Below are positions 10,531-31,575 of a stretch of DNA of 40,915 nt, in pieces; the stretch's first letter is position 1; every line of letters begins with the position of its first letter. A program made the position numbers and the translations under genes. A model generated the notes under the pieces. The model searched no databases. It saw only the letters and a program-made list of their open reading frames with translations, and was not told the DNA's origin. Source of the DNA: an uncultured cyanobacterium (GTDB lineage: Bacteria; Cyanobacteriota; Cyanobacteriia; Cyanobacteriales; FACHB-T130); the NCBI GenBank assembly GCA_936920195.1, contig CAKZHE010000259.1, positions 1 to 40,915 of the forward strand, in the 5' to 3' direction.

Positions 10531-10544
10531 AAAGTTAAATTGGG

Positions 10545-10600: not shown

Positions 10601-10630
10601 CATCGACTCATGCAGACGCGCTATATAATT

Positions 10631-10770: not shown

Positions 10771-10789
10771 AGTGTATTGCCAGTATCTA

Positions 10790-10865
10790 GTAGGGTGCGT
10801 TAGCGTCAGCGTAACGCACCGCGTACCAGTTAACGGTGCGTTACGCTATCGCTAACGCACCCTAC
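10790..10865. repeat. Repeat family B, copy 1
   Basis: This 76-bp element folds into one long hairpin. GTAGGGTGCGTTAGCG pairs with CGCTAACGCACCCTAC at the far end, and an inner AGCGTAACGCACCG arm pairs with CGGTGCGTTACGCT, with a small internal bulge. A copy at 40840-40915 differs at only two positions. Confidence 0.9.
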
Positions 10866-10898
10866 TACTCATTTATTTAACGTATACAAAAAAGCAAA

Positions 10899-12134: not shown

Positions 12135-12144
12135 GAGGGGAATT

Positions 12145-13224
12145 ATGGGTATAAAGTGTATTAGGTGTAATACTGATAATACCGCAAGCGATCGCCGATC
12201 TCATGCTGGACGCTGTAAAAACTGCGGTCATTCGTTTGTGTTTGAATTAACTACTATTAATGGCAGACGAATTACTGATAAATATTTTGCTGGTTGCCTC
12301 GCTACTATTTCTAGTCAAGATACGCTGTATTTTACTGAAAGTCAATTTTTCTACTTTCTGCAAAAACGCCTAGGTAAAGTTAAAAATGCTAAGTTTAATC
12401 TGATTTTTCCGGGAGTGATGCTAACTTTGATCGGAGGAATAACCATTCCAGATGCGATCTTACGGTTATGTGCCGTAATTTTAGGAATAGTTCTAATTTT
12501 GTTGGGTTTTAATTCTACTGGAGGGGAATTAGATGCCTTAAGTCAAGAACAGTTTAAGGATTTAATGCGCTGTTGGCAAAAAGTTAATCCCATCCCCAAA
12601 ATGCTCCCTAAAGTTACGGCTGAACTAAAACCAGTTGAAATAAATTCGGAAATTTTAGCCTATAGTTTTGATAAAGCGGTAATTTGTGATAACGATGCGA
12701 TCGCGCAAATGTTAATCGCCAATAACTTTCACTTTGAAAACAACTGCGCCATCCTCAGTATAAATGGTTATCCCCAGGGAATTTTTGGCTCGGTGATGCA
12801 GATGTTACGCCGCAATCCGGATTTAAAAGTTTATGCTCTGCACGATGCTAGTCCGGATGGGATTAAGTTACCCTATCTATTACAAACTAGCAATGATTGG
12901 TTTGCCAATGATAGCGCCACAGTTTATCAATTGGGAATGCTCCCCCGCCAAGTAATTAAAAACCGCAAGTTGCCAGTCCAAGTTTCTGCAAATTATACTC
13001 TGAAAGCGCAACAACTCCCCCCAGAAGTTCGGCAAAGTTTATCAACTACGGAATTAAAGTGGTTAGAAGAGGGAAAATTTCTAGAATTGGAATCCTTTAG
13101 TCCTCGGAAAATTATCCAAATTCTCAATCAAGGCATGGCGAGAAGTCAAAATACTCCTGCTGACAGCTTAGTGGAAATTGATGGCGATCGCTACTACGTC
13201 GATCAAACATTTAGCTTCGGCTAA
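12145..13224 (+). CDS. Zinc-ribbon, membrane-anchored protein with a Toprim-like C-terminal domain
   Basis: The family is not recognised by name. Residues 1-30 hold a zinc ribbon with two CxxC pairs (Cys5, Cys8, Cys24, Cys27). Two hydrophobic segments follow near residues 84-102 and 104-122. The C-terminal part contains ILSINGYPQGIFG (near 203-215) and YALHDASPDGI (230-240), spaced and shaped like the Toprim core of topoisomerase VI A/Spo11-type proteins, with DxSPxG standing where DxDPxG is usual. This domain call is inference from the motif. It starts 10 bases behind the decarboxylase-fold gene, so the two are probably co-expressed. Confidence 0.75.
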   Translation: MGIKCIRCNTDNTASDRRSHAGRCKNCGHSFVFELTTINGRRITDKYFAGCLATISSQDTLYFTESQFFYFLQKRLGKVKNAKFNLIFPGVMLTLIGGITIPDAILRLCAVILGIVLILLGFNSTGGELDALSQEQFKDLMRCWQKVNPIPKMLPKVTAELKPVEINSEILAYSFDKAVICDNDAIAQMLIANNFHFENNCAILSINGYPQGIFGSVMQMLRRNPDLKVYALHDASPDGIKLPYLLQTSNDWFANDSATVYQLGMLPRQVIKNRKLPVQVSANYTLKAQQLPPEVRQSLSTTELKWLEEGKFLELESFSPRKIIQILNQGMARSQNTPADSLVEIDGDRYYVDQTFSFG

Positions 13225-13422: not shown

Positions 13423-16188
13423 ATGACGGAGCCTTCAAAGACAGAAGCCAACCAGTTTAATGGAAGAGTCATTCCATCCAACTGGGATTTCCAAAACACC
13501 ATCACCGACGTATCAGGTTCTCATGAAGTCTGGTATCCAGCGTCCCAAGATGATGTTGCCACTGCGATTAAGCTTTCTAAGAACCAAAAAACATTTGTTC
13601 GAAGTGGCAAACAGGTGGTAAGACAAGATGAAGTGGATGGGTCAAACGGAGTTGTTATCAATCTCAGCGAATTAGTAAACGTCACCATCAACGGGAACAA
13701 GGTGGTAGTAGAGGCGGGAGCGACAGCCGAAGATATAATAAAGCACCTCATCGATCGCCGTTTGGCACTACCGCTTTCCGACGATCCGCTCAAGAGCATT
13801 GCCTCAAATGTAATGAATGAGAGCGTCTCATACCTAACACGTAGTCTAGGGTCGCTTACAGGCTATATTTCGGAAATCAAAGCAGTGAAGCCAGATGGAA
13901 CACCGATCGCAGTTCCAATCAGCACAGATCAACCCTACGCAGGAGAATCATGGTTGGCTCTGTGCCAAGAGTCTAGAGCTATCATCACTCAAGTCACATT
14001 TGAGGCAGTGCCAGCTCAGAGCCTTTGGATGCAGCGATTCTCCTTCCCATATACTGGTTATGACGAGTTTCTTCGCCTCGCCCAAGGCTTATTTTTAGAG
14101 TCACATATACCAGAGAATTGCGACCTGGTGTTGGATCTCTATAGTGGCTCATACCTAATGCCAATCGTGAGTATCACTGCTCTGGGAGTTGCAGAAGAGG
14201 GAAAATCAGAGCTAGAGAGACTTATCGCCGGAGTTGTCTCCAACCTTCCTTCTGTCGCCGCAGTTATCTTCGAGCTTCCTTCTGGCCGCGCACGTCAAAT
14301 ATTGGCTGGGTCTGACGTCCTCGAAGCTATTGCAGGCAGCGGTCAAGGAGCAGGTCTAGATCCGACCATTGATTCTCAGAGGCTCCAGAGAATCGAAGCT
14401 GCTCCCGGGAATTGGGCGAACTTTATCGTCGAGTACGTTAACTATATCCACAGCGGAGTATCCTATCGTGAGAACGGAGAGGGCAAACTCCACCCAGACC
14501 TCCAGATATCAGCTCGTCTGCAAATAAACCGAGATAATGCTCTTGAGGTCACTGGTTATGCCTACACTCCAAAACGGATAGAGTCCACATTGGCAGCATC
14601 TGCTCGTATAGACACACCACTTCACGAAGGTGTTCCTCTAACTCCATCCCTGACCTCACGTGAACTTTCAAGACCCATACCAAATTTTAAAGGTGACGTT
14701 TACCAACCAAATGATCCGGGCTACCTCTCTAAGGCCAAGGTCTACGCAACTACATCGTACCCAGCGGAAAATTTGACACCCTTAATGGTGGCTTACCCAC
14801 GGGACGCAGAGGACATTGCGGCAGCCATCGCGTTTGCCAGATCGGAAAATTTGCATATTGTGGCTAGAAGCGGCGGTCATCAATACTCTGGAAAGTCTTC
14901 GGGAGGCAGCAAAACGATTGTGCTTAGTATGGATGCGTTTAACCACCTAAGCATCTCTGGGAATATCGCTGAGGTCGGCCCAGCGGTTCAACTGACGCAG
15001 CTCGCGGCTGAATTCAAGAAAAAGAAGATCACAATCCCCCACGGTGAGTGCCCGATGGTGGCCATCGGCGGTCATGCTCAAACTGGAGGGTATGGTCATC
15101 TTGTCCGTAACTTTGGTTTAGCCCTTGACTATGTTGAGGCATTCGACATTGTATTGGCAAAAGATGGAAATCTTCGTACGGTTACTCGTCCAGTAGGTTC
15201 TTCCTCCTCTTCGGATGAAGAGAACCTTGACCGAGAGATATTCTGGGGTGTGTTAGGTGGAAATGCTGGTTCGTTTGGCATCGTGACCAGCTACAAGTTC
15301 AAATGTATTCAGGATACCAATTGCCCAAATTCCTACGGATATACTGCACTCAGGAAGTATAGAAAGAGTCGCTTTCAGAAACTGATGAAGCTGGTTCAGT
15401 CATGGTCGAAAGACATCAAAGCTGGGACACTAACAGCAGATTTTGATTTTATGATGACCGTAAAATCAACAGACAAAATCCAATTCTTCCCGGTACTGTT
15501 GGTTGAAGCAGTATACGGAAATCTACCTGTTGTAAACAAAGGTGTTATCGAAGATGGGAGGTTGAAATCAATCGATGAGGCGGTTTTGTTTGAGCAAAGT
15601 TGGTGGGAGAATTTTCTACGCCGCGAATACGGTAAGAGATCGCTGCCAGATTTGTCAGATTCGTTCGTGCGTCGCCATCCAGCTACAACCCATGATGGAC
15701 GTGAATTTGAATATCCATACAAAAAGCGGATCAACTGTACCACAAACGCGTTGACCGACGATTTTATTCAGCAGTTTGTAGACATGATCGATAAGGTGGT
15801 TATGAAAACGGAAGGCGTAAAGCTCATCTTTCAAATGTTGATGGGCGGTGGTGCTTATCAGAATACGAAGGGTAAGAATGTAACATCAATCTCTCATAGA
15901 GATTACGTTTTCTGCTTTGTATTCGATCTCTTCTACCGGGAGGGCTTCGAGCAAATTGCCGTAATATTACAGAAAGATATGCAGAAGGTGATTGATGAAC
16001 ACTTCAGCGGCAATCAAGAACTACGGGTTTTCTGGGGTTCCTTTGGGGATACAGATATTAGCAAGAAGGAGATCAGACAGATGTACTACGACAGTGAAGA
16101 GCAGTACGCACGACTGCAACAACTCAAACAAAAAGTAGACCCCAACGACATCTTTCATACAACGTTGACTGTCCAACTGCCAGGGTAA
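13423..16188 (+). CDS. Fused double FAD-binding oxidoreductase (VAO/berberine-bridge type)
   Basis: This 921-residue protein carries two FAD-binding type 4 units. The first (about residues 1-250) is degenerate: where the flavin-linking RSGGH is expected it reads RSGKQV. The second (about 440-640) has RSGGHQYSG with His486 and GECPMVAIGGH with Cys543, the pair used for bicovalent FAD attachment in berberine-bridge enzymes. The C-terminal YYDSEEQYARLQQLKQKVDP is a BBE-type end. Most bacterial relatives have one unit and about 450-550 residues, so the length suggests a fusion. A good ribosome-binding site (AGGGGAT near 13412) precedes the ATG. No GCGATCGC was found in its 2.8 kb, unlike its neighbours, which suggests acquisition. 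The substrate is unknown; sugars and alkaloid-like aromatics are typical for the family. Confidence 0.88.
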   Translation: MTEPSKTEANQFNGRVIPSNWDFQNTITDVSGSHEVWYPASQDDVATAIKLSKNQKTFVRSGKQVVRQDEVDGSNGVVINLSELVNVTINGNKVVVEAGATAEDIIKHLIDRRLALPLSDDPLKSIASNVMNESVSYLTRSLGSLTGYISEIKAVKPDGTPIAVPISTDQPYAGESWLALCQESRAIITQVTFEAVPAQSLWMQRFSFPYTGYDEFLRLAQGLFLESHIPENCDLVLDLYSGSYLMPIVSITALGVAEEGKSELERLIAGVVSNLPSVAAVIFELPSGRARQILAGSDVLEAIAGSGQGAGLDPTIDSQRLQRIEAAPGNWANFIVEYVNYIHSGVSYRENGEGKLHPDLQISARLQINRDNALEVTGYAYTPKRIESTLAASARIDTPLHEGVPLTPSLTSRELSRPIPNFKGDVYQPNDPGYLSKAKVYATTSYPAENLTPLMVAYPRDAEDIAAAIAFARSENLHIVARSGGHQYSGKSSGGSKTIVLSMDAFNHLSISGNIAEVGPAVQLTQLAAEFKKKKITIPHGECPMVAIGGHAQTGGYGHLVRNFGLALDYVEAFDIVLAKDGNLRTVTRPVGSSSSSDEENLDREIFWGVLGGNAGSFGIVTSYKFKCIQDTNCPNSYGYTALRKYRKSRFQKLMKLVQSWSKDIKAGTLTADFDFMMTVKSTDKIQFFPVLLVEAVYGNLPVVNKGVIEDGRLKSIDEAVLFEQSWWENFLRREYGKRSLPDLSDSFVRRHPATTHDGREFEYPYKKRINCTTNALTDDFIQQFVDMIDKVVMKTEGVKLIFQMLMGGGAYQNTKGKNVTSISHRDYVFCFVFDLFYREGFEQIAVILQKDMQKVIDEHFSGNQELRVFWGSFGDTDISKKEIRQMYYDSEEQYARLQQLKQKVDPNDIFHTTLTVQLPG

Positions 16189-16446: not shown

Positions 16447-18147
16447 TCATTCTTTAGATGGTTTTTGATTTGCTTGCAGCCAAATTTCTAAAGTGACTAA
16501 CAACCATAATAACACTCCATAACGCGACCACAATTGCCCGCGATATTCTAACCATTCCTTAATTACAGCTTGATTTAGATAGGGCGCGATCGCCGCTTTC
16601 CTATTTAACAACAAATCTTGGGCTTTTTGTCGCCAAATTGTCCGAAACCATTGCTGCATGTGCATTACCATGCCACTTTTCGGACGATTTAAAATTGCCT
16701 CTGGTAGCAAGTCTGCCACCGCTTGCTTTAAAACTGCCTTTTCTGTCACCCCTGCCAATTTATACTCTGGGGGAATCTGCATACTCAATTCTACAATCCG
16801 GCGATCGAATAACGGCGATCGCCCCTGCAACCCCGCCGCCTGAGTAAAATTACTGACTTTGGTTAGGATGTAGTCTGCCCCTTTAAACTTGATATTGACT
16901 GCCATCAGTCGATTCAGATAGGTTGACTCAGCGGCAGTTAAATCAGCGGCAAAAAAATAGGGTTGTTCTCGCACCGCCTCCCAAATCTCCGGTTTCAGCA
17001 ACCGCTGTAAATCGGGAAAGCATTTTTTGAAGGAAGTCAAATAAGCCGTCACCGGATCGACTTGTTCCTGAACCCGACTATAGATAGTATTGAGGAGCAT
17101 AGGCTGATTTTTCGGTCCACCAAAACAAGGATCTCCCCCTTCCCCATTCAAGGTAACGCCGACTAACTCCTGTGCCAACTTACCCACCAACAGGTTTGGC
17201 ACTGTCAATCCCTCGCCGATAGGATCGTCCAAATGCGCGATCGCCTCTGGCAATAATTCCCAAAGTTGCTGTAAACTAACTTCTAAAATGTGGTGTTCCG
17301 TGTGGCAATGGGCGGCTACTAAGTTGGCAAAGTCCAATTCGTGGGGATATTCCAATCCAAAATGAATCGAATATGTATGCACGGGATGGCGGTGCAACTT
17401 AGCAGCCAACGCCGTAATACTACTGGAATCAATCCCCCCAGATAAAAAGACTCCCACAGGTTGATCCTGGGGCAAGTATTCTTGAACTACTGCCTCTAAT
17501 TGCGATCGCAGTTTCTCCCCATGCCAAATCAAAGATTTTTCCGGATGGCGAATATCCTCTTTTACTTGCCAATAACTTTGCGGCGGCTGCTGTGGAAATT
17601 GCCAAATCTTCCCCGGCGCTAACTCCCGCACATCTTGCCAGAGAGTTCTTTCTCCCGGCACAAAGGCGCAGCAGAGATAATCTCGCAACGCCACCAAATC
17701 TAATTCTCCGGTGCGATAAGGCGCTAAAGTCCTCATTCGTGGGGCAATCCAGCCTGTTTCCCCCCGATGGATATAATATAAGGTGCGGCAACCCACGCGA
17801 TCGCGAATTAAAGATAATTCTCGCCGATCTCGATCCCAAATGGCGATCGCCCACATTCCCTCTAATAGCTCTAACGCTCCTACTCCGGATTTTTCCCATA
17901 GCCGCGCTACCAGTTGGCAATCCGATACCGCCACCTCCGCATTAATTCCTAAGTACGCTATTAAGCGATCGCGGTTGCTTAACCAAATATCTCCCACTAC
18001 TACGAATTTTTGCTGAGGACTAAAGGTTGGTTCTGTCAAAGCGATCGCTATTTGCTCGTCTTGCCAAGTCACTCCGGTAACTAATGGCAACGACGAAACT
18101 CCCCAAACTATATACCAATCGGGCTTTACCGTCGCTGCCGACTGCAT
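16447..18147 (-). CDS. Second asparagine-synthase-like enzyme lacking the N-terminal cysteine
   Basis: This belongs to the same family as the gene at 8072-9787. From ATG at 18147 it is 566 residues; a TTG at 18189 would add 14, but the ATG has GGGGAG close upstream. The N-terminal Ntn-hydrolase-like half keeps GDIWLSNRDRL and the RDRVGCRTLYY segment. The ATP loop SGGIDSS is at 236-242 and a normal GEGGD follows, with Asp and Pro-Cys-Phe-Gly-Gly after it. The residue after Met is Gln, so the usual glutaminase nucleophile is missing. It probably adenylates a carboxylate and joins it to an amine or ammonia. Whether the product is asparagine is uncertain. It faces away from the ammonia-lyase operon across the 880-base leader. 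Confidence 0.87.
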   Translation of the reverse strand: MQSAATVKPDWYIVWGVSSLPLVTGVTWQDEQIAIALTEPTFSPQQKFVVVGDIWLSNRDRLIAYLGINAEVAVSDCQLVARLWEKSGVGALELLEGMWAIAIWDRDRRELSLIRDRVGCRTLYYIHRGETGWIAPRMRTLAPYRTGELDLVALRDYLCCAFVPGERTLWQDVRELAPGKIWQFPQQPPQSYWQVKEDIRHPEKSLIWHGEKLRSQLEAVVQEYLPQDQPVGVFLSGGIDSSSITALAAKLHRHPVHTYSIHFGLEYPHELDFANLVAAHCHTEHHILEVSLQQLWELLPEAIAHLDDPIGEGLTVPNLLVGKLAQELVGVTLNGEGGDPCFGGPKNQPMLLNTIYSRVQEQVDPVTAYLTSFKKCFPDLQRLLKPEIWEAVREQPYFFAADLTAAESTYLNRLMAVNIKFKGADYILTKVSNFTQAAGLQGRSPLFDRRIVELSMQIPPEYKLAGVTEKAVLKQAVADLLPEAILNRPKSGMVMHMQQWFRTIWRQKAQDLLLNRKAAIAPYLNQAVIKEWLEYRGQLWSRYGVLLWLLVTLEIWLQANQKPSKE

Positions 18148-18435
18148 CCCCCTCCCCTGTAGCGGAAAAATCCCGACAGTTGCTGCCAAAATAAAAACAA
18201 TTGTTTCAATAGCTTCTAGTTATCAATCTATAGTTTTTTCTGCCCAGACAATTCCTACATATCTTATTGCTTCGTTTTTGTCAAGAAAATTAATTTAGGC
18301 AGTTTAGGGAGCGATCGCTTGCCAAATCAATAAAAATTTATTATTATCTTTACTCGGATGGTAAATTATGATACGTTGATCTAGCAAATGCAAAGGGGGG
18401 TTCAACTACGATGCCAAAAATGAACTATTAGTAAA

Positions 18436-19069: not shown

Positions 19070-20767
19070 ATGACTGCACGCTTAATGCCACCAATCTCCG
19101 GACTATCGCCTGCCATTACCGCTGAAACTAAGGAGATCGTAGTTCTCGGTAATAATCCCCTCACCATTGACGATGTATTTCAGGTAGCGCGAAACGGTAG
19201 AAAAATCAAATTAACCGAGCAAGACCGAGTTTGGCAAAGAATTCAGGCATCCTGCGACTATATTAGCGATGCCGTGGCATCCGGCAAACCAATTTATGGA
19301 GTGACTACAGGCTTCGGGGGGATGGCAGATACCGAGATTTCTGCTCAAGAAGCGGCTGACTTGCAAAACAACTTAATTTGGTTTCTGAAATCGGGAGCCG
19401 GAGCTAGATTACCCATTGCTGATGTTCGCGCTGCGATGCTACTGCGAATTAACTCCCATTTGCAAGGAGCATCGGGATTGCGGCGAGAACTAATTGAACG
19501 GATGGCAATATTTCTGAATGCTGGGGTTACGCCCCACGTTTATGAATTTGGTTCCATTGGGGCGAGCGGCGACTTAGTACCCTTAGCGCATATTACTGGA
19601 GCGCTAATTGGTTTAGATCAAAGCTTCACCGTAGACTTTAACGGTGAAGAAATGAATGCCATTCAAGCCTTAGAAAAATTGGCCTTACCTAGAATTAATC
19701 TCCGTCCCAAAGAAGGGTTAGCCATGACCAATGGCACTTCAGTTATGACCGGAATTGCTGCCAATTGCGTCCGGGATTCTCAAGTTTTACTAGCTTTAGC
19801 GATGGGCGTTCATGCCCTGGCAATTCAAGGTTTAGCCGGAACCAATCAATCTTTTCATCCTTTTATTCACGCTCTCAAACCCCATTATGGTCAGCGGTGG
19901 GCGGCTGACCGAATGGTGAAATTACTGGCCGGTTCTTGCTTGAGCCGCGACGAATTAGATGGGAACAGTCATATTTGGAATCATGGCTTAATTCAGGATC
20001 GTTATTCTCTCCGGTGTTTGCCCCAATATCTCGGTCCAATTGTCGAAGGGATAGAAGAAATTGCCCAACAAATTGCCATTGAATTAAACTCTGTCACCGA
20101 CAATCCATTAATTGATGTGGATAATCAGGCCAGTTATCACTGCGGTAACTTTTTGGGGCAGTATGTTGGCACAGGCATGGATCGCTTGCGCTATCTTTTA
20201 GGTCTATTAGCCAAACATATTGATGTTCAAATCGCCCTGTTAGTTGCCCCAGAATTTAATAATGGCTTGCCCCCTTCCTTGGTAGGAAATCCGGCGCGGA
20301 AAGTCAACATGGGTCTGAAGGGATTGCAAATTGCGGGGAATTCGATTATGCCCCTGCTCACCTTCTATGGAAATTCGATTGCCGACCGATTTCCTACCCA
20401 TGCCGAGCAGTTTAATCAAAATATCAATAGTCAAGGTTTTGCGGCAGCTAATTTAACTCGGCAATCAGTCCAAACCTTTCAACAATATATGGCGATCGCC
20501 TTAATATTTGGAGTCCAAGCCGTGGACTTGCGGACTCAGGCGATCGCTGGTCACTACGATGCCAGAGAATGCCTATCTACAGGCACTTTGGCCTTATATG
20601 AAGCCGTGAAAAAAGTAGTCGGCAAACCTATTTCTATCGATCGCCCCTACATCTGGAACGATCACGAGCAATCTTTGAACCAACACATTGCTTTAATTGC
20701 GGCTGATATCGCCAAGGAAGGTCAAATCGTGCAAGCGGTGCAAGAGACTTTGGTAAGTTTAAAATAA
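19070..20767 (+). CDS. Phenylalanine ammonia-lyase (MIO family)
   Basis: The enzyme removes ammonia from phenylalanine to give trans-cinnamate using the self-made MIO cofactor. The 565 residues closely resemble cyanobacterial PALs such as those of Anabaena and Nostoc, which are about 567 residues. The MIO triad Ala165-Ser166-Gly167 is in GSIGASGDLVP, the catalytic Tyr76 is in YGVTTGFGG, and NGTSVMTG and FNQNINSQG are intact. The substrate switch region reads FLKSGAG (Phe105-Leu106), the phenylalanine-type pair, not the His-Leu of tyrosine lyases. An aminomutase role cannot be excluded by sequence alone. It leads a run of genes to 25710 ending at a terminator. Confidence 0.9.
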   Translation: MTARLMPPISGLSPAITAETKEIVVLGNNPLTIDDVFQVARNGRKIKLTEQDRVWQRIQASCDYISDAVASGKPIYGVTTGFGGMADTEISAQEAADLQNNLIWFLKSGAGARLPIADVRAAMLLRINSHLQGASGLRRELIERMAIFLNAGVTPHVYEFGSIGASGDLVPLAHITGALIGLDQSFTVDFNGEEMNAIQALEKLALPRINLRPKEGLAMTNGTSVMTGIAANCVRDSQVLLALAMGVHALAIQGLAGTNQSFHPFIHALKPHYGQRWAADRMVKLLAGSCLSRDELDGNSHIWNHGLIQDRYSLRCLPQYLGPIVEGIEEIAQQIAIELNSVTDNPLIDVDNQASYHCGNFLGQYVGTGMDRLRYLLGLLAKHIDVQIALLVAPEFNNGLPPSLVGNPARKVNMGLKGLQIAGNSIMPLLTFYGNSIADRFPTHAEQFNQNINSQGFAAANLTRQSVQTFQQYMAIALIFGVQAVDLRTQAIAGHYDARECLSTGTLALYEAVKKVVGKPISIDRPYIWNDHEQSLNQHIALIAADIAKEGQIVQAVQETLVSLK

Positions 20768-20845
20768 CCTACTTGCCGATTTGTTCAGTATTAACTGCCT
20801 AGAAATTTATCTTTAGGCTGCCCATCTTTCCCCTCTAGAATTGCC

Positions 20846-21181
20846 ATGACTGCTAACAACATTGATTTAAATCGCTCTTTATTCAGCTTCCCAATTACTG
20901 AAGTTAGTGCTGATTTAGGGCGACTATTTCAATCCTTGAAAATTACTGCTAGCCAATGTGTCAAAATTTTTTTGAGCCAACCGATTGACTGGCAAAAATT
21001 CTCCTGGTATAATCACCCAGGAAATAGCCAACTTCCCCTTGAAGACAATAGCGATCGCTACACGGCAAGCTTCAAGTCAAGTTGGCTTTCATCAGTGAAG
21101 ATTACCACCGCCCAATGTATCAAGATTCTCCAAGTAAATGCGATCTACTGGCGGCAAGCTTGCCCCTGGATCGTTCGCTAG
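20846..21181 (+). CDS. Small protein with an internally duplicated motif
   Basis: No known family was recognised. The 111 residues contain two related segments: LKITASQCVKIF followed by DWQKFSW (about residues 31-54), and VKITTAQCIKIL followed by YWRQACPW (about 84-108). At the DNA level the matching codons differ mostly at third positions (AAA/AAG, ATT/ATT, ACT/ACC, CAA/CAA, GTC/ATC), which supports protein-level selection and a real gene. No signal peptide or membrane helix is evident. It sits between the ammonia-lyase and ligase genes in the same direction. It may be a small accessory or binding protein of the pathway; function unknown. Confidence 0.65.
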   Translation: MTANNIDLNRSLFSFPITEVSADLGRLFQSLKITASQCVKIFLSQPIDWQKFSWYNHPGNSQLPLEDNSDRYTASFKSSWLSSVKITTAQCIKILQVNAIYWRQACPWIVR

Positions 21182-21254
21182 CTTTTCGGAATTAGTAGGC
21201 GCGGGCTTGGCGCGGATTTCAAATGCCAAGCCGTTTATTTTCGATTGTCATACC

Positions 21255-22745
21255 ATGAATATTGCCCAAAACATTGAGCGCGGTCGGCGCTTCTTTCCTG
21301 AAAAACCTGCCCTAATTTTTGCAGACCAATCTTTAAGCTATCAAGAACTAGATCGGCAGACCAATCGGGCAGCAAATAGTTTGCGGCAATTGGGGATAAA
21401 TAGGGGCGATCGCGTAGCCTTATTTCTGCCCAACATTCCCGAATTTGCCATCAGCTATTTAGCAGTTCAAAAAATTGGCGCAGTGGCAGTTTCCATCAAT
21501 GTGATGCTCAAACCAGGAGAAATCAAATTCATCCTCAAAGACTGCCAAGCCAAAGCAATTATTACCACTGCCGAACTCAGTCCCCAAGTACCAGATAGCG
21601 AAGTTCCCGAACTCCAGCACTTACTAATTATTCCTGGGACAACCCAAACTAGCACTAATTTAGGCGAACTGATGGCACTGGCTGCCGATGAAGCCCAAGC
21701 TATATCTATGGAAAGCCACGAACCAGCGGCAATCCTCTACACCTCTGGCACAACAGGTTTTCCCAAAGGAGCTACCCTTTCCCACGGCAACATCATCTCC
21801 AATATGTACTCGGTAAACCGCTGTACCAAGATGAATCCCGAAGATCGGCTGTTACTGTTTTTGCCCCTGTTTCACTGCTTTGGACAAAACTTTGTTCTCA
21901 ACAGCGGTTTGAATGCTTGTGCCACCATCGTTTTACAGCAGCGCTTTGAAATTAGTGCCGTTTTAGAAACCATTGAGCGCGATCGCATTACCATGTTCTT
22001 TGGCGTGCCAACCGTCTTCAAACACCTATTAGAACTGCACCCAGAAGAATGGACTTGCAGTTCCCTGCGCTACTACTTTTCCGCCGCTGCTCCCATGCCA
22101 CCGGAAGTCCCCCAACAATGGCTATCCCGATATGGAGCCATCATTCACGAAGGTTACGGACTCACCGAAACATCACCCTTTGCTAGCTATAACCACGAAT
22201 TTAAATATCAGTTCGGCTCCATTGGAATGCCCATCGACAACGTAGAAATGAAAATTGTCGATTTAGACGGCAGCGAAACTCCCATCGGGAAAATTGGTGA
22301 AATTATCGTCCGCGGTCCCAACGTCATGCTCGGTTATTGGAATCGTCCCCAGGAAACTGCCCAAGTCATCAAAAACGGCTGGTTTTATACCGGAGATCTG
22401 GGGCGGATGGATAAAGACGGCTACTTTTATATCGTTGACCGCTTGAAAGATATGATCAACGTTTCCGGCTTCAAAGTTTATCCCAGCGAAGTTGAGCGCA
22501 TCATCGCCAAACATCCCGCCGTCGCCGAAGTAGCCGTTTATGGAGTCGCAGACCAACTCAAAGGCGAAATCGTCAAAGCCAATATCAAGCTCAAATCTGG
22601 TGTAGTTATGAGCCAGAAAGAGATCATTAACTTCTGCATCCAAAACATCGCCACCTATAAAATTCCCCGCGACATCAATTTTGTCGAATCCATTCCCAAA
22701 AATGCCACGGGCAAAGTATTGAAACGCTCTCTGCGAGAACAATAA
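21255..22745 (+). CDS. AMP-forming acyl-CoA/4-coumarate-CoA ligase-like enzyme
   Basis: This ANL-superfamily enzyme activates a carboxylate as an acyl-AMP and transfers it to CoA or a carrier protein. The frame opens earlier, but ATG at 21255 (MNIAQNIERG) gives the standard start, at 496 residues. The P-loop YTSGTTGFPKG begins at residue 162, YGLTETSP is the adenylate motif, GWFYTGDLG holds the hinge-region aspartate, and the C-terminal NATGKVLKRSLRE carries the catalytic lysine. Length and motifs fit 4-coumarate-CoA ligase as well as fatty acyl-CoA ligases. Its location behind a PAL gene favours cinnamate or a derivative as substrate, but this is inference. Confidence 0.9.
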   Translation: MNIAQNIERGRRFFPEKPALIFADQSLSYQELDRQTNRAANSLRQLGINRGDRVALFLPNIPEFAISYLAVQKIGAVAVSINVMLKPGEIKFILKDCQAKAIITTAELSPQVPDSEVPELQHLLIIPGTTQTSTNLGELMALAADEAQAISMESHEPAAILYTSGTTGFPKGATLSHGNIISNMYSVNRCTKMNPEDRLLLFLPLFHCFGQNFVLNSGLNACATIVLQQRFEISAVLETIERDRITMFFGVPTVFKHLLELHPEEWTCSSLRYYFSAAAPMPPEVPQQWLSRYGAIIHEGYGLTETSPFASYNHEFKYQFGSIGMPIDNVEMKIVDLDGSETPIGKIGEIIVRGPNVMLGYWNRPQETAQVIKNGWFYTGDLGRMDKDGYFYIVDRLKDMINVSGFKVYPSEVERIIAKHPAVAEVAVYGVADQLKGEIVKANIKLKSGVVMSQKEIINFCIQNIATYKIPRDINFVESIPKNATGKVLKRSLREQ

Positions 22746-22807
22746 TCTCCTCCCCTTCTGCCCATTTCCAACTCAAACCACCAACATTTCACCTTTCCGA
22801 GAAAATC

Positions 22808-24571
22808 ATGGTACGCACCTTAAATAAATCTGTCCCCACCGAGAAAGCTTTTCCTAACCCCAAATTATTACCCATAGCTTACCCACCAACCCCCACCATC
22901 TCAGTTGCTGACACCATCGTTCAGATGCTAGAAAATATGGGAGTGCGGTTTGCCTTTGGGGTATCAGGAGGCGCGATCTCTCCAGTTTGGGCAGCACTAG
23001 AATCTAGTCAGATTAACGTGCTACACTTTCGTCATGAAGCTGGAGCCGTATTTGCTGCCATTGAAGCTTCTTTAATTAGCGGCGATCCAGTAGCCATCTT
23101 TACTACTGCCGGACCGGGAATCACCAATGCCTTAACCGGACTATTAGCTGCCCGATGGGAAGAAGCCAAAGTTATTTTCCTCTCTCCTGCTACCTCGGCT
23201 CCCCAACGAGGTAAATGGGCTTTTCAAGAAACCAGTAACTATACCATGCCTCTCTTGGGACTGTATTCCTCTGGAGCCTTATTTCATTACGCCACTACCC
23301 TAGAATCTGCGGATGAACTACCAGAAGTATCTCGCCGCCTTGCTCAGGGCATAGCCCGACCAAACGGTTTTATCGCCCATATTAGTATTCCTACTGACCT
23401 CCAGAGCCGCAACAGCACCCTCCCTTTACCAACAGTAAAATTTGCCCAAACTTTGGCAACTGCTAGTGAAAAAGCGATCGCCCACTGTGCTAATTTACTC
23501 GCCACAGGCTCCTTTGCCATCTGGATAGGATTTGGAGCGCGTCATAGTTCTAGAGCCATTCGCCAATTAGCAGAGCGAACGGGGGCTGCCGTCATCTGTT
23601 CCCCCCGTGGCAAAGGCATTTTCCCCGAAGATCATCCCCAATTTGTCGGCGTAACAGGTTTTGGCGGACATACCTCAGTCTTGGCATATATGCAGGTGCA
23701 GCAACCGGAGCGGATTCTAGTTTTAGGCACTCGCCTGGGAGAATTCACCTCCTTTTGGAATCCTGCCATGATCCCCAAGCGCGGATTTATTCATGTTGAT
23801 ATCGATCCCGAAGTACCAGGTGCAGCCTATCCCGATGCCGAAACCTTTGGTATTCAATCTGATGTGGGTATATTTCTCAAAACTCTCCTCAAACACTTTC
23901 CCAAAACCGTCAAGCGATCGCCCTCAGTCAAATTATCTCCCCACGAAGGTATTGACCTTAGTCCCCAACCAGGTTTAGTCCGACCAGAATTTTTAATGGC
24001 AGCTATTCAACAAGCGATCGTCGAAAATAGCGATGCCCCCATCATTACCGAAGCTGGTAACTCCTTTGCATGGGGCAATCACCACCTCAGATTTAGCCAA
24101 CCCCATCGCTATCGAGTTAGCACCGGATTTGGATCGATGGGTCATGCTGCCACAGGCGTTTTGGGGACAGCCTTAGCCAAAAACGGCAAAGCAGTTGCCA
24201 TCCTGGGTGATGGAGCCATGCTCATGAACAACGAAGTTAGCACCGCCGTTAAATACAAAATTCCCGCCGTCTGGATTGTTCTCAACGATGCCCATTACAA
24301 TATGTGCGCCCAAGGTATGTCTGCCCTCGGCTTCAAAGAGGTCGATACCACCATTCCCCCAGCAGATTTTGTGCTGATTGCTCGCGGCATGGGTGCTGAC
24401 GGCATCTGCGTTGAAAAAGAATCCGATCTTCAGATGGCACTAGAAAAAGCTCTGTCATCAACTGTCCCCTTTGTTGTCGATGTCGCCATCGATCCCAGCC
24501 AACCCGCTCCCTGTGGCAGTCGCATCCAGAGTTTAATCGCCCAAGGCGCTACCGAATTAAAAGGAGTTTAA
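22808..24571 (+). CDS. Thiamine-diphosphate-dependent enzyme, acetolactate-synthase-like
   Basis: The 587 residues follow the three-domain plan of ThDP enzymes: an N-terminal PYR domain with catalytic Glu77 (RHEAGA), a central domain with IGFGARHSS and VLGTRLGEF, and a C-terminal PP domain with the cofactor motif GDG at 467-469 and Asn493. Family members catalyse decarboxylation or carboligation of 2-oxo acids and aldehydes, as in acetolactate synthase, benzaldehyde lyase and the scytonemin enzyme ScyA. The substrate is not readable. In this operon a phenylpropanoid or pyruvate-like donor is plausible. The KASIII-like gene begins three bases later with its own AAGGAG. Confidence 0.9.
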   Translation: MVRTLNKSVPTEKAFPNPKLLPIAYPPTPTISVADTIVQMLENMGVRFAFGVSGGAISPVWAALESSQINVLHFRHEAGAVFAAIEASLISGDPVAIFTTAGPGITNALTGLLAARWEEAKVIFLSPATSAPQRGKWAFQETSNYTMPLLGLYSSGALFHYATTLESADELPEVSRRLAQGIARPNGFIAHISIPTDLQSRNSTLPLPTVKFAQTLATASEKAIAHCANLLATGSFAIWIGFGARHSSRAIRQLAERTGAAVICSPRGKGIFPEDHPQFVGVTGFGGHTSVLAYMQVQQPERILVLGTRLGEFTSFWNPAMIPKRGFIHVDIDPEVPGAAYPDAETFGIQSDVGIFLKTLLKHFPKTVKRSPSVKLSPHEGIDLSPQPGLVRPEFLMAAIQQAIVENSDAPIITEAGNSFAWGNHHLRFSQPHRYRVSTGFGSMGHAATGVLGTALAKNGKAVAILGDGAMLMNNEVSTAVKYKIPAVWIVLNDAHYNMCAQGMSALGFKEVDTTIPPADFVLIARGMGADGICVEKESDLQMALEKALSSTVPFVVDVAIDPSQPAPCGSRIQSLIAQGATELKGV

Positions 24572-24573
24572 TC

Positions 24574-25710
24574 ATGAGCCATCAACCCGTAGGCATTCGT
24601 TCCCTTGCCGTCAGCTTTCCCCGCACCGTTAGAACTAACGATTATTGGCGGCAAAATCATCCAGAATTAATTGCTCAGGCAGAACAAAAAAGTTTATCAA
24701 AAGCTTTTTCGATTGTCGAATCAAACTCAAATATTCCATCTGATGACCTTTGGTCGCAGGAAATGATCCCTTACCTGTCTGACCCCTTTCGCGGCACGGT
24801 TGAAAGACGGGTATTAGCTCCAGGTGAGTCCTCCCTAGACATAGAATATCAAGCAGCCAAAGAAGCTCTAGATGCCATCAAACTCGATCCTGAAGAGATA
24901 GATTTGATGCTGGTTGCCTCTATGTTTCCTGAAGAAATAGCCCCTGGCAATGCTTCCTTCCTTTCCGGTCGATTAGGTCTTCGAGGAGCGGCATGGAATA
25001 TAGAGTCAACCTGTACCAGTGCTATAGTTGCCTTCCAAACTGCTTGTGCTTTAATTCGGGCAGGAGAATATCGCCATGTACTTGTGGTAACATCAACTAC
25101 ATTTTCTCGCTTTGTAGATGAAAGTGATACGTTGTCATTTTTAACTGGTGATGGAGCAGGGGCATTTGTAGTTAGTTCCCTGGAAACAAACCAAGGAATC
25201 CTAGGGACAAAGATTATTCATACTGCCGAAACCTGTGGGGCTTTTTTCAATGAACTCACGACCGATACTAAAGGCAATCCCCGGATGGTAATTCGAGCAG
25301 GTGAAAGTGCTAACAAAATGTTCCGCAATACATTTGTTGAATCCTGCCGTATCTGCTGCGATGCCGCACTTAAAGCCGCTGGAATCACCATTAAGCAGAT
25401 TGACTTTTTGATCTCGAATACGAATACCGCTTGGTATTCAGATGTTTACAGACAAGCTTTGGGGATTGAGAAAGAACGCACAATTAACCTTAATTCTCAA
25501 TACGCCAATATTGGCTCAACATCTCCAATTGCCAATCTTTATCATGCTGCCCAAAAGGGGAAAATTCGCGAGAACGATCTGGTCTTGATCTACACCTTTG
25601 GGGCAACAGGTACTGCTGGAGCAACTGTTATGCGTTGGGGCGATGTGGCTTTAGGTTCCACTCCTGCCACCGCAGAAAATCCCACAAAAGCGATGGCAGG
25701 AGCGCTATGA
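24574..25710 (+). CDS. KASIII (FabH-like) thiolase-fold enzyme with altered active site
   Basis: The 378 residues fit the FabH/KASIII branch of the thiolase superfamily, with ESTCTSA carrying the nucleophile Cys147 and YANIGSTSP supplying Asn312. The position of the catalytic histidine, normally in PHQANxR, reads SNTNTAW, so Asn282 replaces His. Loss of the histidine argues against ordinary decarboxylative condensation and favours acyl transfer or a different condensation, as in some FabH-like acyltransferases. The end TFGATGTAGATVMRWGD is family-typical. A strong Shine-Dalgarno AAGGAG at 24561-24566 overlaps the previous gene's end. It is the last gene of the operon, with a terminator at 25758-25791. 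Confidence 0.9.
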   Translation: MSHQPVGIRSLAVSFPRTVRTNDYWRQNHPELIAQAEQKSLSKAFSIVESNSNIPSDDLWSQEMIPYLSDPFRGTVERRVLAPGESSLDIEYQAAKEALDAIKLDPEEIDLMLVASMFPEEIAPGNASFLSGRLGLRGAAWNIESTCTSAIVAFQTACALIRAGEYRHVLVVTSTTFSRFVDESDTLSFLTGDGAGAFVVSSLETNQGILGTKIIHTAETCGAFFNELTTDTKGNPRMVIRAGESANKMFRNTFVESCRICCDAALKAAGITIKQIDFLISNTNTAWYSDVYRQALGIEKERTINLNSQYANIGSTSPIANLYHAAQKGKIRENDLVLIYTFGATGTAGATVMRWGDVALGSTPATAENPTKAMAGAL

Positions 25711-25757
25711 TAGCGGTAAAATTTTAAATATAGCGATCGCTAAAAATAGATCTTTTT

Positions 25758-25792
25758 ACTGTCCTAATTTACATATTAGGACAGTAATTTTT
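25758..25792 (+). terminator. Rho-independent terminator of the ammonia-lyase operon
   Basis: ACTGTCCTAAT (25758-25768) and ATTAGGACAGT (25775-25785) are perfect 11-bp arms with a 6-base loop TTACAT. AATTTTTTA follows immediately. It is 48 bases after the KASIII-like stop. Confidence 0.9.
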
Positions 25793-25968: not shown

Positions 25969-26028
25969 TATTCAGGGTTGCTCTAACTCAAAAAATTGTC
26001 GCCGCATAAAGTATACAAAGGATATGCA

Positions 26029-29000
26029 ATGAATACTGAGTTTTCTGGATGCCAAATTATTAAACTGCTTCATGAAGGTCGCAAAACTGTCATTTATCGC
26101 GGTTTAAGAGAAGCAGAGCCAACTTCGGTAATTATTAAAACTCTCAAGGCCGAATATCCTACTATCGAAGAAATTACTCGCTTAAAACATGAATATCAAA
26201 TCCTGCAAACCTTAGATATACCAGGAATTGTTAAGCCTTATGAACTAACAGACTATCAGCATGGTTTAGCACTAATATTAGAAGATTTTGCCGGAGAATC
26301 TCTCAAGCAATTTATTGACGCTCAAAAAATCTCATTAATTAATTTCCTAGAAATTGGCATTTTTTTAGCCCAAACGTTAGGAGAACTCCATCGCACTCAA
26401 ATTATTCATAAAGATATTAAGCCTCAGAATATTCTCATTAACTCAGAAACAGGGGAAGTTAAACTGATTGATTTTAGTATTGCTACCCGCCTAGAAAAAG
26501 AAAGTCCAGGGATTAGCAGCCCTAATTTGCTAGAAGGTACTTTAGCCTATATGTCTCCAGAACAAACTGGACGGATGAATCGTTTTATCGACTATCGCAC
26601 TGATTTTTACTCTTTGGGAGTCACTTTTTATGAAATCCTGGCAGGTCAGTTACCATTTCAGAATTTTACAGATCCGATGGAGCTAGTCCACTGCCACATT
26701 GCCAAAAGTCCAGTTCCATTAAGTAAAATAAATTCAGAAATACCTGATTCTATCTCATCAATTGTGATGAAGTTGTTGGCAAAGAATGCTGAAGAGAGAT
26801 ACCAAAGTGCATTAGGAATCAAAGCTGATTTAGAGGAATGCTTAAGGCAATTACAATCATCCCATCAAATAGGTAAATTTGTTTTAGGGAAACTTGATAA
26901 ATCTGGTCAATTTGTCATTCCCCAAAAACTTTATGGCAGAGAAGCAGAAGTGGCTGAATTAATGGCAGCCTTTGAACGCATCAGCTTGGGAACAAGTGAA
27001 ATCATGCTGGTTAGCGGCTATTCAGGCATTGGCAAAACTTGTTTAATCAATGAAATTCATAAACCGATAGTCCGTCAACGGGGACATTTTATTGCGGGTA
27101 AGTTCGATCAATTTAAGCGCAATATTCCTTATGCCGCATTAATTCAAGCTTTTTCGGAATTAATCCGGCAGCTTTTAACTGAAAATTCTGAAAAAATAGA
27201 ATTTTGGAAACAGGAAATTGAAACTGCCTTAGAGCAAAATGGTAAAGTAATTACTGATGTTATTTCCGAAGTGGAGTTGATCGTGGGTTCTCAACCAGAA
27301 GTGCCACAGTTAGGATCAACAGAAGCCCAAAATCGCTTTAACCGAGTCTTTAAACAGTTTATTCATATATTTGCCAAGCCAGAACACCCATTAGTGATTT
27401 TTTTGGATGACTTGCAGTGGGCTGATTCTGCTTCTCTGAAATTAATTCAATTGCTGACCACCGATCCCGACAGCAAATATTTACTCTTGATAGGGGCATA
27501 TCGGGATAATGAAGTTAGTCCAACTCATCCTACCATTTTGGTTTTAGAAGAAATTAAAAAGGCTGGAGCAGTTATTAAGAATATTGTGCTTCGTCCTTTA
27601 GATATTAGCAATGTTAGTCAATTAGTGGCAGATACTCTGAATGAAACCGAAAGATCTAAGCTGTTATCGGAATTGCTTTTTAATAAAACCCAAGGCAATC
27701 CATTTTTCTTGACTCAATTATTTAAGACACTTAACTTTGAAAATTTATTGAATTTTGACTTTTTTGAGGGGCGGTGGCTGTGGGACATAGAACAAATTCA
27801 AGCTTTAGGCATTATTGATTACAATGTTGTCGATCTGGTAGCCAGAAATATTCTAAAATTGCCAGAAAAAACCCAACAAGTATTAAAATTAGCTGCTTGT
27901 ATTGGCGATCGCTTTAATTTGGAAGTCATAGCTATTGTTAACGAAAAATCATTATTAGCCTCAGCTGATGATTTGTGGCCTGCTTTGCAGGCAGGGTTAA
28001 TTCTTCCCTTAAATAATAACTACAAAATACCTTTAGTTTTTGATTCGGAAAAGCAAGATAGTTTTAATTTTGATAATTCCACAATTACTTACAAATTTCT
28101 CCACGACCGCGTTCAACAAGCGGCCTATTCTTTAATTCCGCAAGAAGACAAAAAAATCACCCATTTAAAAATAGGTCAGTTATTGCTGAAAAAAACATCG
28201 CAATATGCTCTCGAAGAAAACATTTTTGACATTGTTAATCAACTAAATATCGGGGTCGAATTAATTACGGAACAAGCAGAAAGAGAAAAGCTAGCTAATT
28301 TAAATTTGCAAGCAGGAAAAAAAGCCAAATCTGCTACAGCCTATGAAGCTGCATCAAAGTATTTAACTATAGGAATAGAACTTCTGCCGCAACAAAGCTG
28401 GCATAATTACTATCAATTAACCTGGAATCTTTATGTGGAAGCACTGGAAACAGCATACCTAAATATTGATTTTGAAAAAGGAAAATATCTATCTGAAATT
28501 ATCCTGCAAGAATCTAGAACTTTACTGGAAAAGATCAAAGTATATGAGTTAAAAATTCCTTTTTATTGTTCGCAAGATCAAATGCAGCAAGCTTTAAGCA
28601 CTGGTATAGAAGTATTAGAGATGCTAGGAGTTTCTTTACCAAAAAAACCAAATAAACTCCTCGTTGTCAGGGAGCTAATTCGTAAAAACTGGATGATGAG
28701 AAATAAACGCATTGAAGACTTAGCTAATCTTCCAGCAATGACTGACCCCTATAAACTGGCATCAATGAGAATTTTGATGAATATAATTCCTGCTACTTTC
28801 AATGCAAATCCTATTATGTTTCCACTATGTATATTTAAAATGATGAAGCTTTGTCTTAAATATGGAAATTCACCTTTGGCTCCCTATGCTTATGTATCAT
28901 ATAGTATGATTGCCTGTGGAGTGCTAGGTGAAATTAATTCTGGATACAAATTTGGAAATCTAGCATTAGAACTATTGGGTAGATCTAATTCTAAAGAACT

Positions 29001-31575
29001 AAACTCCAAAGTCCATCTTTGTTTTTATAATTTTGTAAAACACTGGAAAGATCCTTTAAAGGAAGCAAGGAGTTCTTTTATTGAAGCTTACCAAATTGGG
29101 GTAGAAAATGGAGATATAGAATATGCTTGCTATAATATTTTTGCATTGGCACTAAATTTATTTTGGAGCGGTGAATCATTAGAATATATTAACAAAGCCC
29201 AGAATCAATATTGGAATGCAGCGCAAAAATACAAACAAGAACTTACCGCCAGTTTGATCAATACATGGGAGCAAATAACACATAATATTTTAAATTACTC
29301 TGAAAATAAATGTGATTTGAAATATAATGGCTTTGATGAAGAAAAAGTATTGCTAGTATTGAAAAAAAAGAATAATCAGGTAGGAATTGCTTCTATTTAC
29401 TTAATCAAGCTGATCTTGAACTATTTGTTTAAAAATCACCAATATGCTGTTGAAAATGCCAAATTAGTAGAAGAATATCAAGCTGGACTGAGTGGAACTA
29501 TATTAAGTGCGGGATATATTTTCTACTATTCTTTAGCTCTTTTAGCTCACTATTCTAGTGTGGAAAAGAAGCAACAAAAAAAATACTTAAACCAAGTTGT
29601 ATCCCATCAAAAACAAATGCAGAAGTGGGCTACCCATGCCGCCTGTAACTTTCAACACAAATACGATCTAGTTGAAGCTGAAAAGGGGCGCGTTTTAAAA
29701 CAAGATGCCAAAGCCATCGATTTTTACGATCGCGCCATTCAAGGAGCTAAAATCAACGGGTATATTCAAGAAGAAGCACTAGCCAATGAACTAGCAGCAG
29801 AATTCTATTTGTCTCGCGGCAGAGACAAAATTGCTAAAACCTATATGACAGAAGCTTATTATTGCTATATTCGCTGGGGTGCTAAAGCTAAAGTTAGAGA
29901 TCTAGATGAAAGATATCCCAACTTGATTTCTCGAACTATCATCCAAGAATCTGAAAATATTAACATTACTCGCACAACATCAACTTCAACTTCAACTTCA
30001 AGTAAAGAATCGCAAATTTTAGATCTCACTACAGTTATTAAAGCCTCCCTAGCTTTATCGGGAGAGATTTTGATTGGCAATCTTCTTGATAAACTATTAA
30101 AAATATCGATTGAAAATGCTGGCGCTCAAAAAGGCTTATTCATTTCTAAATCTGATAATAAATGGATTGTTGAAGCTGAGGCAACTGTTGAAGAAAATGA
30201 AGTTAAAGTGTCTCATACCGCAACTTCCGCTGGCAGTGTCAATTTGCCAATATCCTTGTTAAATTATGTGGAAAGAACTAGAAAAAGTTCGGTTTTAGAC
30301 AATGCGAAGGAAGTAGAAATTTTTGCAAACGATCCCTACATTTTAGCTAATCAAACAAAATCTGTTTTGTGTTCGCCAATTATTCACCAAGGTAAATTAA
30401 CTGGAATTCTTTATTTGGAAAACAATTTAATTATCGGTGCATTTACCTCCGATAGATTGAATATTTTAAATCTCTTAACGTCTCAAATCTCAATTTCCAT
30501 TGAAAACGCTCGTCTCTATACCAATTTACAAAGCTATTCTCAAAGACTAGAAAATAAGTCTCAGGAATTGGAAGCCAAATCTCAGGAGTTGGAAATTAAA
30601 AATGCTGCTTTGCAAGCATCAGAATTGCGAGAGCGAGAAAAGGCAGAAGCTTTAGAACGATCTTTACATGAGTTACAACAAACTCAAGCTCAATTGGTAC
30701 AAACCGAAAAAATTTCTTCTTTGGGGCAGTTGGTGGCTGGGGTAGCCCATGAAGTGAATAACCCGGTGAGTTTCATTTCTGGGAATTTACATTATGCGAC
30801 GCAGTATGTCGAGGATTTACTGGGGTTGGTGCAACTTTATCAGCAACACTATCCCGAACCAAATCCAGAAATTGCCGAGGAAATTGAGGCGATTGAGTTG
30901 GATTATCTGGTAGAAGATTTGCCAAAAATGCTTTCTTCTATGAATTTGGGAACAGAACGGATTCGGGAAATTATGCAGTCGTTGCGGAATTTTTCGCGGG
31001 TTGATGACGCGCAGGCTAAACCTGCGGATATCCATGCGGGTTTGGATAGTACGCTGATGATTTTGCACCATCGCTTAAAGGCGAATGCGGTACGCCCAGC
31101 CGTGGAATTGATCAAGGAATATGGTCAATTGCCGCTGGTGGAATGCTATCCTGGTCAGCTAAATCAGGTATTTATGAATTTAATTGCTAATGCGATTGAT
31201 GCGTTTGATGAGTTTAATCGCGGTAAGACTTTTGCTGAAATTGAACGCCAGCCAAATATGATTCGGATTCGGACGGAAGTTAGTCAAGGTGCTAGTAACG
31301 ATCATTCTACAGGTAGCAGGGCGATTATCCGCATTGCTGATAATGGTCACGGAATGTCAGCGGATACGCTGTCTAAGTTATTTCAACCTTTCTTTACAAC
31401 TAAACCTGTCGGCAAGGGTACGGGTTTAGGGCTGTCAATTAGTTACAAAATTGTAGTGGAAAAACACCACGGCAGTTTGCGCTGTACTTCTACCCCCGGA
31501 GAAGGAACGGAGTTTATAATTGAAATTCCGATTCTGCAATCCCAGGAAGTTAGCGAAGTAGCAGTAGAAAATTAA
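26029..31575 (+). CDS. HstK-type Ser/Thr kinase, AAA ATPase, GAF and histidine kinase sensor
   Basis: This giant multidomain sensor (about 1848 residues from ATG 26029, with GGAT upstream) follows the HstK plan known in cyanobacteria. Residues 1-280 are a Ser/Thr kinase: Lys37, catalytic loop HKDIKPQN (127-134) and LIDFS (148-150), where DFS replaces DFG. An AAA ATPase domain follows, with Walker A SGYSGIGKT (329-337) and Walker B IFLDDLQWAD. A long helical repeat region comes next, then a GAF domain near residues 1340-1480. A coiled-coil linker (LENKSQELEAKSQELE) leads to a histidine kinase with H-box GVAHEVNNP (about 1570), N-box NAIDAF and G-boxes DNGHGM and GKGTGLGLS. It is probably cytosolic, as no membrane segment is apparent. 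It may sense nutrient or stress signals; the ligand is unknown. Confidence 0.9.
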   Translation: MNTEFSGCQIIKLLHEGRKTVIYRGLREAEPTSVIIKTLKAEYPTIEEITRLKHEYQILQTLDIPGIVKPYELTDYQHGLALILEDFAGESLKQFIDAQKISLINFLEIGIFLAQTLGELHRTQIIHKDIKPQNILINSETGEVKLIDFSIATRLEKESPGISSPNLLEGTLAYMSPEQTGRMNRFIDYRTDFYSLGVTFYEILAGQLPFQNFTDPMELVHCHIAKSPVPLSKINSEIPDSISSIVMKLLAKNAEERYQSALGIKADLEECLRQLQSSHQIGKFVLGKLDKSGQFVIPQKLYGREAEVAELMAAFERISLGTSEIMLVSGYSGIGKTCLINEIHKPIVRQRGHFIAGKFDQFKRNIPYAALIQAFSELIRQLLTENSEKIEFWKQEIETALEQNGKVITDVISEVELIVGSQPEVPQLGSTEAQNRFNRVFKQFIHIFAKPEHPLVIFLDDLQWADSASLKLIQLLTTDPDSKYLLLIGAYRDNEVSPTHPTILVLEEIKKAGAVIKNIVLRPLDISNVSQLVADTLNETERSKLLSELLFNKTQGNPFFLTQLFKTLNFENLLNFDFFEGRWLWDIEQIQALGIIDYNVVDLVARNILKLPEKTQQVLKLAACIGDRFNLEVIAIVNEKSLLASADDLWPALQAGLILPLNNNYKIPLVFDSEKQDSFNFDNSTITYKFLHDRVQQAAYSLIPQEDKKITHLKIGQLLLKKTSQYALEENIFDIVNQLNIGVELITEQAEREKLANLNLQAGKKAKSATAYEAASKYLTIGIELLPQQSWHNYYQLTWNLYVEALETAYLNIDFEKGKYLSEIILQESRTLLEKIKVYELKIPFYCSQDQMQQALSTGIEVLEMLGVSLPKKPNKLLVVRELIRKNWMMRNKRIEDLANLPAMTDPYKLASMRILMNIIPATFNANPIMFPLCIFKMMKLCLKYGNSPLAPYAYVSYSMIACGVLGEINSGYKFGNLALELLGRSNSKELNSKVHLCFYNFVKHWKDPLKEARSSFIEAYQIGVENGDIEYACYNIFALALNLFWSGESLEYINKAQNQYWNAAQKYKQELTASLINTWEQITHNILNYSENKCDLKYNGFDEEKVLLVLKKKNNQVGIASIYLIKLILNYLFKNHQYAVENAKLVEEYQAGLSGTILSAGYIFYYSLALLAHYSSVEKKQQKKYLNQVVSHQKQMQKWATHAACNFQHKYDLVEAEKGRVLKQDAKAIDFYDRAIQGAKINGYIQEEALANELAAEFYLSRGRDKIAKTYMTEAYYCYIRWGAKAKVRDLDERYPNLISRTIIQESENINITRTTSTSTSTSSKESQILDLTTVIKASLALSGEILIGNLLDKLLKISIENAGAQKGLFISKSDNKWIVEAEATVEENEVKVSHTATSAGSVNLPISLLNYVERTRKSSVLDNAKEVEIFANDPYILANQTKSVLCSPIIHQGKLTGILYLENNLIIGAFTSDRLNILNLLTSQISISIENARLYTNLQSYSQRLENKSQELEAKSQELEIKNAALQASELREREKAEALERSLHELQQTQAQLVQTEKISSLGQLVAGVAHEVNNPVSFISGNLHYATQYVEDLLGLVQLYQQHYPEPNPEIAEEIEAIELDYLVEDLPKMLSSMNLGTERIREIMQSLRNFSRVDDAQAKPADIHAGLDSTLMILHHRLKANAVRPAVELIKEYGQLPLVECYPGQLNQVFMNLIANAIDAFDEFNRGKTFAEIERQPNMIRIRTEVSQGASNDHSTGSRAIIRIADNGHGMSADTLSKLFQPFFTTKPVGKGTGLGLSISYKIVVEKHHGSLRCTSTPGEGTEFIIEIPILQSQEVSEVAVEN

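Follow-up and report, generated by a model that had tools for sequence, protein, structure and literature searches.

A putative furanolide biosynthesis operon of the cyanobacterin/maculalactone type, with a small gene and a kinase gene beside its core, in an uncultured cyanobacterium

The window analyzed here (the whole 40,915-nucleotide stretch of contig CAKZHE010000259.1) holds a block of five same-strand genes for a phenylalanine ammonia-lyase (PAL), a small protein, a CoA ligase, a ThDP enzyme and a KASIII-like enzyme (Table 1). An earlier note on this DNA had placed the block at 19070-25710; its coordinates match the open reading frame list, and the families it named agree with Pfam and NCBIfam. 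The compact layout it described is borne out as well. The genes are separated by gaps of 78, 73, 62 and 2 nt, the block contains a single forward-strand terminator-like match, a weak stem of 5 pairs in the PAL gene, and the hairpin with its T run that follows the last gene lies near the position first proposed for it (25758-25792). Since terminator-like matches as a whole are no commoner in the window than in shuffles (7 vs. 8.7), the call at this position rests on the one strong stem. A promoter-like match (11/12) occurs at 20985-21013, inside the small ORF; such matches, too, are no commoner than in shuffles. Rfam and tRNA scans of the window returned no matches. Upstream of the block lie a gene (13423-16188) whose 921-aa product has a berberine-bridge-like C-terminus and two FAD-binding oxidase stretches and, adjoining it on the opposite strand, an asparagine-synthase-like gene (16447-18189). 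Both were considered as members of the pathway and rejected, as related loci have no counterparts of them.

Table 1. Genes and signals of the block and its downstream flank (positions in the window)
Feature	Position	Strand	Remarks
PAL (proposed CybB/MacB role)	19070..20767	+	565 aa; Pfam PF00221, E 3e-145
Small protein	20846..21181	+	111 aa; orthologues between PAL and ligase elsewhere
Aryl-propenoate CoA ligase (proposed CybC/MacC role)	21255..22745	+	496 aa from likely start; AMP-binding domains
Candidate ThDP acyloin synthase (proposed CybE/MacE role), probably ScyA-related	22808..24571	+	587 aa; NF035927 974 bits
Furanolide synthase candidate (proposed CybF/MacF role), KASIII family	24574..25710	+	378 aa; Pfam ACP_syn_III
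Intrinsic terminator-like hairpin	25756..25787	+	13 pairs, then TTTTTT
Ser/Thr kinase-AAA-GAF-histidine kinase	25996..31575	+	1859 aa; Pfam

The small protein matches nothing in Pfam or NCBIfam. It contains two copies of the motif T-x-x-Q-C-[VI]-[KQ]-I-...-W, and an AlphaFold model (two sequences) was mostly helical and of too low a quality (pLDDT 56) to be used in a fold search. An orthologue in Lyngbya sp. CCAP 1446/10 likewise lies between PAL and ligase genes (phmmer E 4e-8). Searched with a profile, 386 cyanobacterial genomes gave five matches, four of which, the window's included, occupy this same position, the fifth being weak and carrying a stop inside; 62 genomes from the same family as the Lyngbya genome yielded nine matches, all of them between PAL and ligase and with a KASIII gene beyond. 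Three orthologues compared in frame give dN/dS values of 0.29-0.44, a bias that the +1 frame does not show. Conserved position, profile search and dN/dS together rule out a chance ORF: with this constraint in frame and a position kept in nine other genomes, we take the ORF to be a real gene. The ligase ORF (21138-22745) opens at 21138; however, its alignable part begins near the ATG at 21255, and with this as the likely start the two genes do not overlap.

The lyase has the MIO residues Ala-Ser-Gly and the selectivity pair Phe105-Leu106 (residue table), both as in characterized cyanobacterial PALs, a combination that marks it as a PAL rather than a TAL. It aligns over nearly its full length with the solved PALs of Nostoc punctiforme (NpPAL) and Anabaena (AvPAL) and shares their WFLK pocket. 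The lyases of related loci fall into two types, Phe-Leu (PAL-like) and Tyr-His, WYHK replacing WFLK in many of them; the Tyr-His pair may mark a tyrosine-type lyase. The ligase is 58-69% identical to the ligases of other PAL loci.

On NF035927, the ScyA-related family, the ThDP enzyme falls below the cut-off of 1000 bits, whereas its counterparts in related PAL loci reach 1004-1022; on NF035923 (ScyA) it reaches 888.8 bits, short of the equivalog cut-off of 1020. The tree places it with the PAL-linked enzymes, at a support of only 82/75 and on a long branch. Because of this branch and a score just under the NF035927 cut-off, its choice of keto acids may differ. Housekeeping enzymes aside, its closest relatives with solved structures are BbmA and CsmA, the latter a CybE homologue (PMC12395478).

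The KASIII-like enzyme lacks the catalytic triad of FabH: it has Cys147-Asn282-Asn312, whereas the genome's own FabH has Cys-His-Asn (triad column analysis). Cys-Asn-Asn is found in 18 of 20 PAL-linked KASIII rows; since KASIII genes adjoining NRPS/PKS genes carry it too, it is a family trait and no proof of furanolide synthesis. The enzyme is 52-68% identical to the counterpart in other four-gene loci, and in the KASIII tree it is sister to that of locus L028 (support 98/94), among PAL-linked, ThDP-bearing loci. The same genome has one other close KASIII relative, 55% identical and with a C-terminal carrier-like extension (L117 12062-13564; G000:C279); as this paralogue belongs to an NRPS/PKS cluster, an arrangement with parallels in other genomes, it was rejected as evidence of a second furanolide cluster. 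In the window's family, five further genomes lacked the KASIII, and plasmid records yielded KASIII relatives only at or below 56%. One PAL locus, L088, has two adjoining KASIII genes (10001-12400), the second with His at the triad position.

Maculalactone and cyanobacterin, an algicide, belong to the furanolides, which are aromatic lactones. On the cyanobacterin route, CybB provides coumarate, CybC its CoA ester and CybE an acyloin acid made from two α-keto acids; CybF then joins the ester and the acyloin acid in an O-acylation followed by a step of the Morita-Baylis-Hillman type and a hydride shift (PMC13288894, PMC12395478). This core recurs in the mac cluster of Nodularia sp. NIES-3585, whose macBCEF genes were enough by themselves for maculalactones to form in E. 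coli (PMC13288894). The core has thus been demonstrated by experiment for both compounds. All four core (BCEF) genes, for lyase, CoA ligase, ThDP enzyme and KASIII-like enzyme, occur together in the window, and the block is, with high probability, a putative furanolide operon of the cyb/mac type. The gene set, its order, homology and key residues are what we observe, and each reaction is read from homology. PAL would convert phenylalanine to trans-cinnamate, which the ligase would activate to cinnamoyl-CoA; the ThDP enzyme would decarboxylate one α-keto acid and add it to a second, giving an α-hydroxy-β-keto acid; and the KASIII-like furanolide synthase would O-acylate this acid with cinnamoyl-CoA and close the butenolide ring through a Morita-Baylis-Hillman-like step and a hydride shift. 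The predicted product is a γ-alkylidene butenolide with an α-benzyl group (maculalactone B or deoxyenhygrolide-like), its β and γ groups not being predictable.

The earlier note had envisioned that phenylalanine-derived cinnamoyl-CoA is joined to another group by the ThDP and KASIII enzymes together. The outline fits the furanolide route, but the part given to the ThDP enzyme does not, since in the described pathway this enzyme joins two α-keto acids and it is the KASIII-like enzyme that fuses the acyloin acid with the aryl-propenoyl-CoA (PMC13288894, PMC12395478), so that the ThDP step would not act on the cinnamoyl unit. Nor can one maintain, as the note did, that no cyanobacterial pathway with this set has been described. 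The cyb and mac clusters, already tied to known metabolites, a finding the note itself had named as fatal to its view, have the same lyase, ligase, ThDP and KASIII-like set at their core. What is gained is a place for a so far unassigned operon in a pathway that was solved recently, along with a testable product prediction.

The window has the core enzymes of cyb, ncl and mac, and its link to these clusters runs through gene content and Nostoc sp. 'Peltigera membranacea cyanobiont' 210A. The cyb cluster (Tolypothrix sp. PCC 9009) shares the core functions B, C, E and F; unlike the window, it has a halogenase and other tailoring genes, and CybB acts on tyrosine to supply a coumaroyl unit, whereas the window lyase has the Phe-Leu pocket of PALs. 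The mac cluster combines PAL, CoA ligase, ThDP enzyme and furanolide synthase with cinnamoyl-CoA as the α unit. Beside its core lie genes for DAHP synthase, chorismate mutase and tyrosinase, among others, none of which adjoins the core in the window; what the window has instead is the small gene after PAL and the kinase gene farther downstream. A nostoclide-like cluster was reported for Nostoc 210A, where homology to the producer of cyanobacterin had revealed it (PMC5987646). Locus L039 of this strain has the gene order of the window, with identities of 71% for PAL, 63% for the ligase, 65% for the ThDP enzyme and 63% for KASIII. A second KASIII relative (56%) lies on another contig of that genome, so that it is the presence of all four genes in L039 by which this locus is equated with the published cluster. 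In contrast to the window, L039 has a lyase with the Tyr-His pair (WYHK), lacks the small protein and the kinase, and has genes for a P450, a multicopper oxidase, chorismate mutase, prephenate dehydrogenase-like and PEP-CTERM proteins nearby.

A scan of the collection yielded 80 loci with a KASIII relative. PAL, ligase, ThDP and KASIII genes stand in that order on one strand in 18 of the 80, all of them named cyanobacterial loci and L039 among them. Five of these 18 (L028, L036, L040, L047 and L088) have no gene inserted among the four; the remaining ones have a P450, a methyltransferase or another ORF between core genes. Two further loci carry ligase, ThDP and KASIII genes on stretches showing no PAL. 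In L036 and L120, DAHP synthase, chorismate mutase and tyrosinase adjoin the core, matching the content described for mac.

Particularly intriguing were nine loci of the Microcoleaceae (L041, L138, L139, L181, L182, L183, L184, L185 and L186) in which PAL, small protein, ligase and KASIII occur together. Their genomes, eight of which are at least 90% complete, all lack a CybE-like ThDP enzyme, the best identity to that of the window being only 25-29%. At position 282 their KASIII has Tyr in seven cases, Phe in one and Asn in one, an Okeania. An SDR gene adjoins KASIII in five loci, and a large kinase follows it in seven, on the opposite strand in two; in the remaining two the stretch read ends near KASIII, with no kinase visible on it. 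The window thus shares with these loci the small protein in the same place and a corresponding kinase, and its PAL and ligase are nearest to theirs by path; it departs from them in having the ThDP enzyme, and in having Asn where they mostly have Tyr or Phe at the KASIII His position. We know of no product of these ThDP-less loci. In the furanolide and Microcoleus literature, with subscription papers mostly outside the search, we found no description of them.

The individual genes differ in the history they suggest. A single clade of the window with three small-protein loci is not rejected for PAL (p 0.34), and the ligase tree unites them weakly (61/65); for KASIII, the window does not group with these three loci (one-clade test, p 7e-7). 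The simplest reading would be that the window is a mosaic, in which a furanolide ThDP-KASIII pair came to lie within a small-protein PAL locus. Alternatively, KASIII might have evolved fast in the other lineage after loss of the ThDP gene, a possibility kept alive by Argonema (L047), whose KASIII is of the other clade although the ThDP gene is present.

The ThDP-less loci also bear on the possibility that the product of the window is no furanolide, with the KASIII-like enzyme joining cinnamoyl-CoA to some other partner and the ThDP product being used differently. The partner must indeed differ in the nine Microcoleaceae loci, which have the same small protein and no CybE-like ThDP enzyme in the genome, and it is to members of this group that the window PAL and ligase are nearest by path. 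However, the window ThDP gene lies 2 nt from the KASIII gene, the KASIII itself groups with the furanolide type rather than with the three small-protein loci, and its residue 282 is Asn, not Tyr or Phe, all of which makes a non-furanolide product improbable. Family names and scores inspire other analogies. If KASIII were to elongate cinnamoyl-CoA with malonyl units, a fatty-acid or stilbene-like product would result, in keeping with its family membership and with the NCBIfam name of the ligase, a long-chain fatty-acid CoA ligase. Yet Asn in place of the FabH His argues against an ordinary malonyl-ACP condensation, among solved structures the ligase comes closest to a feruloyl-CoA synthetase, and CybC, under the same fatty-acid ligase annotation, makes coumaroyl-CoA (PMC12395478); we consider such a product very improbable. 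The match of the ThDP enzyme to ScyA (889 bits on NF035923) could similarly evoke a scytonemin-type reaction on indole and hydroxyphenyl pyruvates. This score is far under the ScyA cut-off, and also under the ScyA-related score of 974, and the ThDP enzymes of furanolide-type loci give the same pattern; the scytonemin pathway was rejected on these NCBIfam scores and is hardly credible. Scytonemin clusters, to our knowledge, lack PAL, ligase and KASIII genes.

Within the furanolide assignment, the small gene and the downstream kinase gene are lineage-specific additions to the core and make the window a distinct variant of the furanolide-type cluster. The kinase is probably an associated gene with a transcript of its own. 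Genomes have 19-30 such kinases each; in three of three other genomes, with 19-20 of them apiece, the best match to the window kinase is the one beside the KASIII gene, so that association by chance is disfavored. The sister type of locus exposed here, with the same lyase, ligase, KASIII-like enzyme and small protein, no acyloin-forming enzyme and an altered KASIII site, allows one to ask how furanolide synthase came by its unusual chemistry and what the ThDP-less loci make. It is tempting to speculate, as one joint and rather doubtful proposal, that the small protein is a dedicated working part in a family of PAL/CoA-ligase/KASIII loci equipped with a sensor kinase of their own, that in Microcoleaceae these loci make a new, non-furanolide class of cinnamoyl products with no ThDP enzyme, and that the window, as a natural hybrid, acquired a furanolide ThDP-KASIII pair and yields a furanolide for whose formation or regulation the small protein is needed. 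Pairs of adjacent ThDP and KASIII genes are also widespread on stretches carrying neither PAL nor ligase (L052-L107, about 40 loci, e.g. L121 and L122), and we know of no product for these PAL-less loci. In the two that were read closely, a GDSL lipase gene comes next and a gene for a WD40-repeat protein lies beyond.
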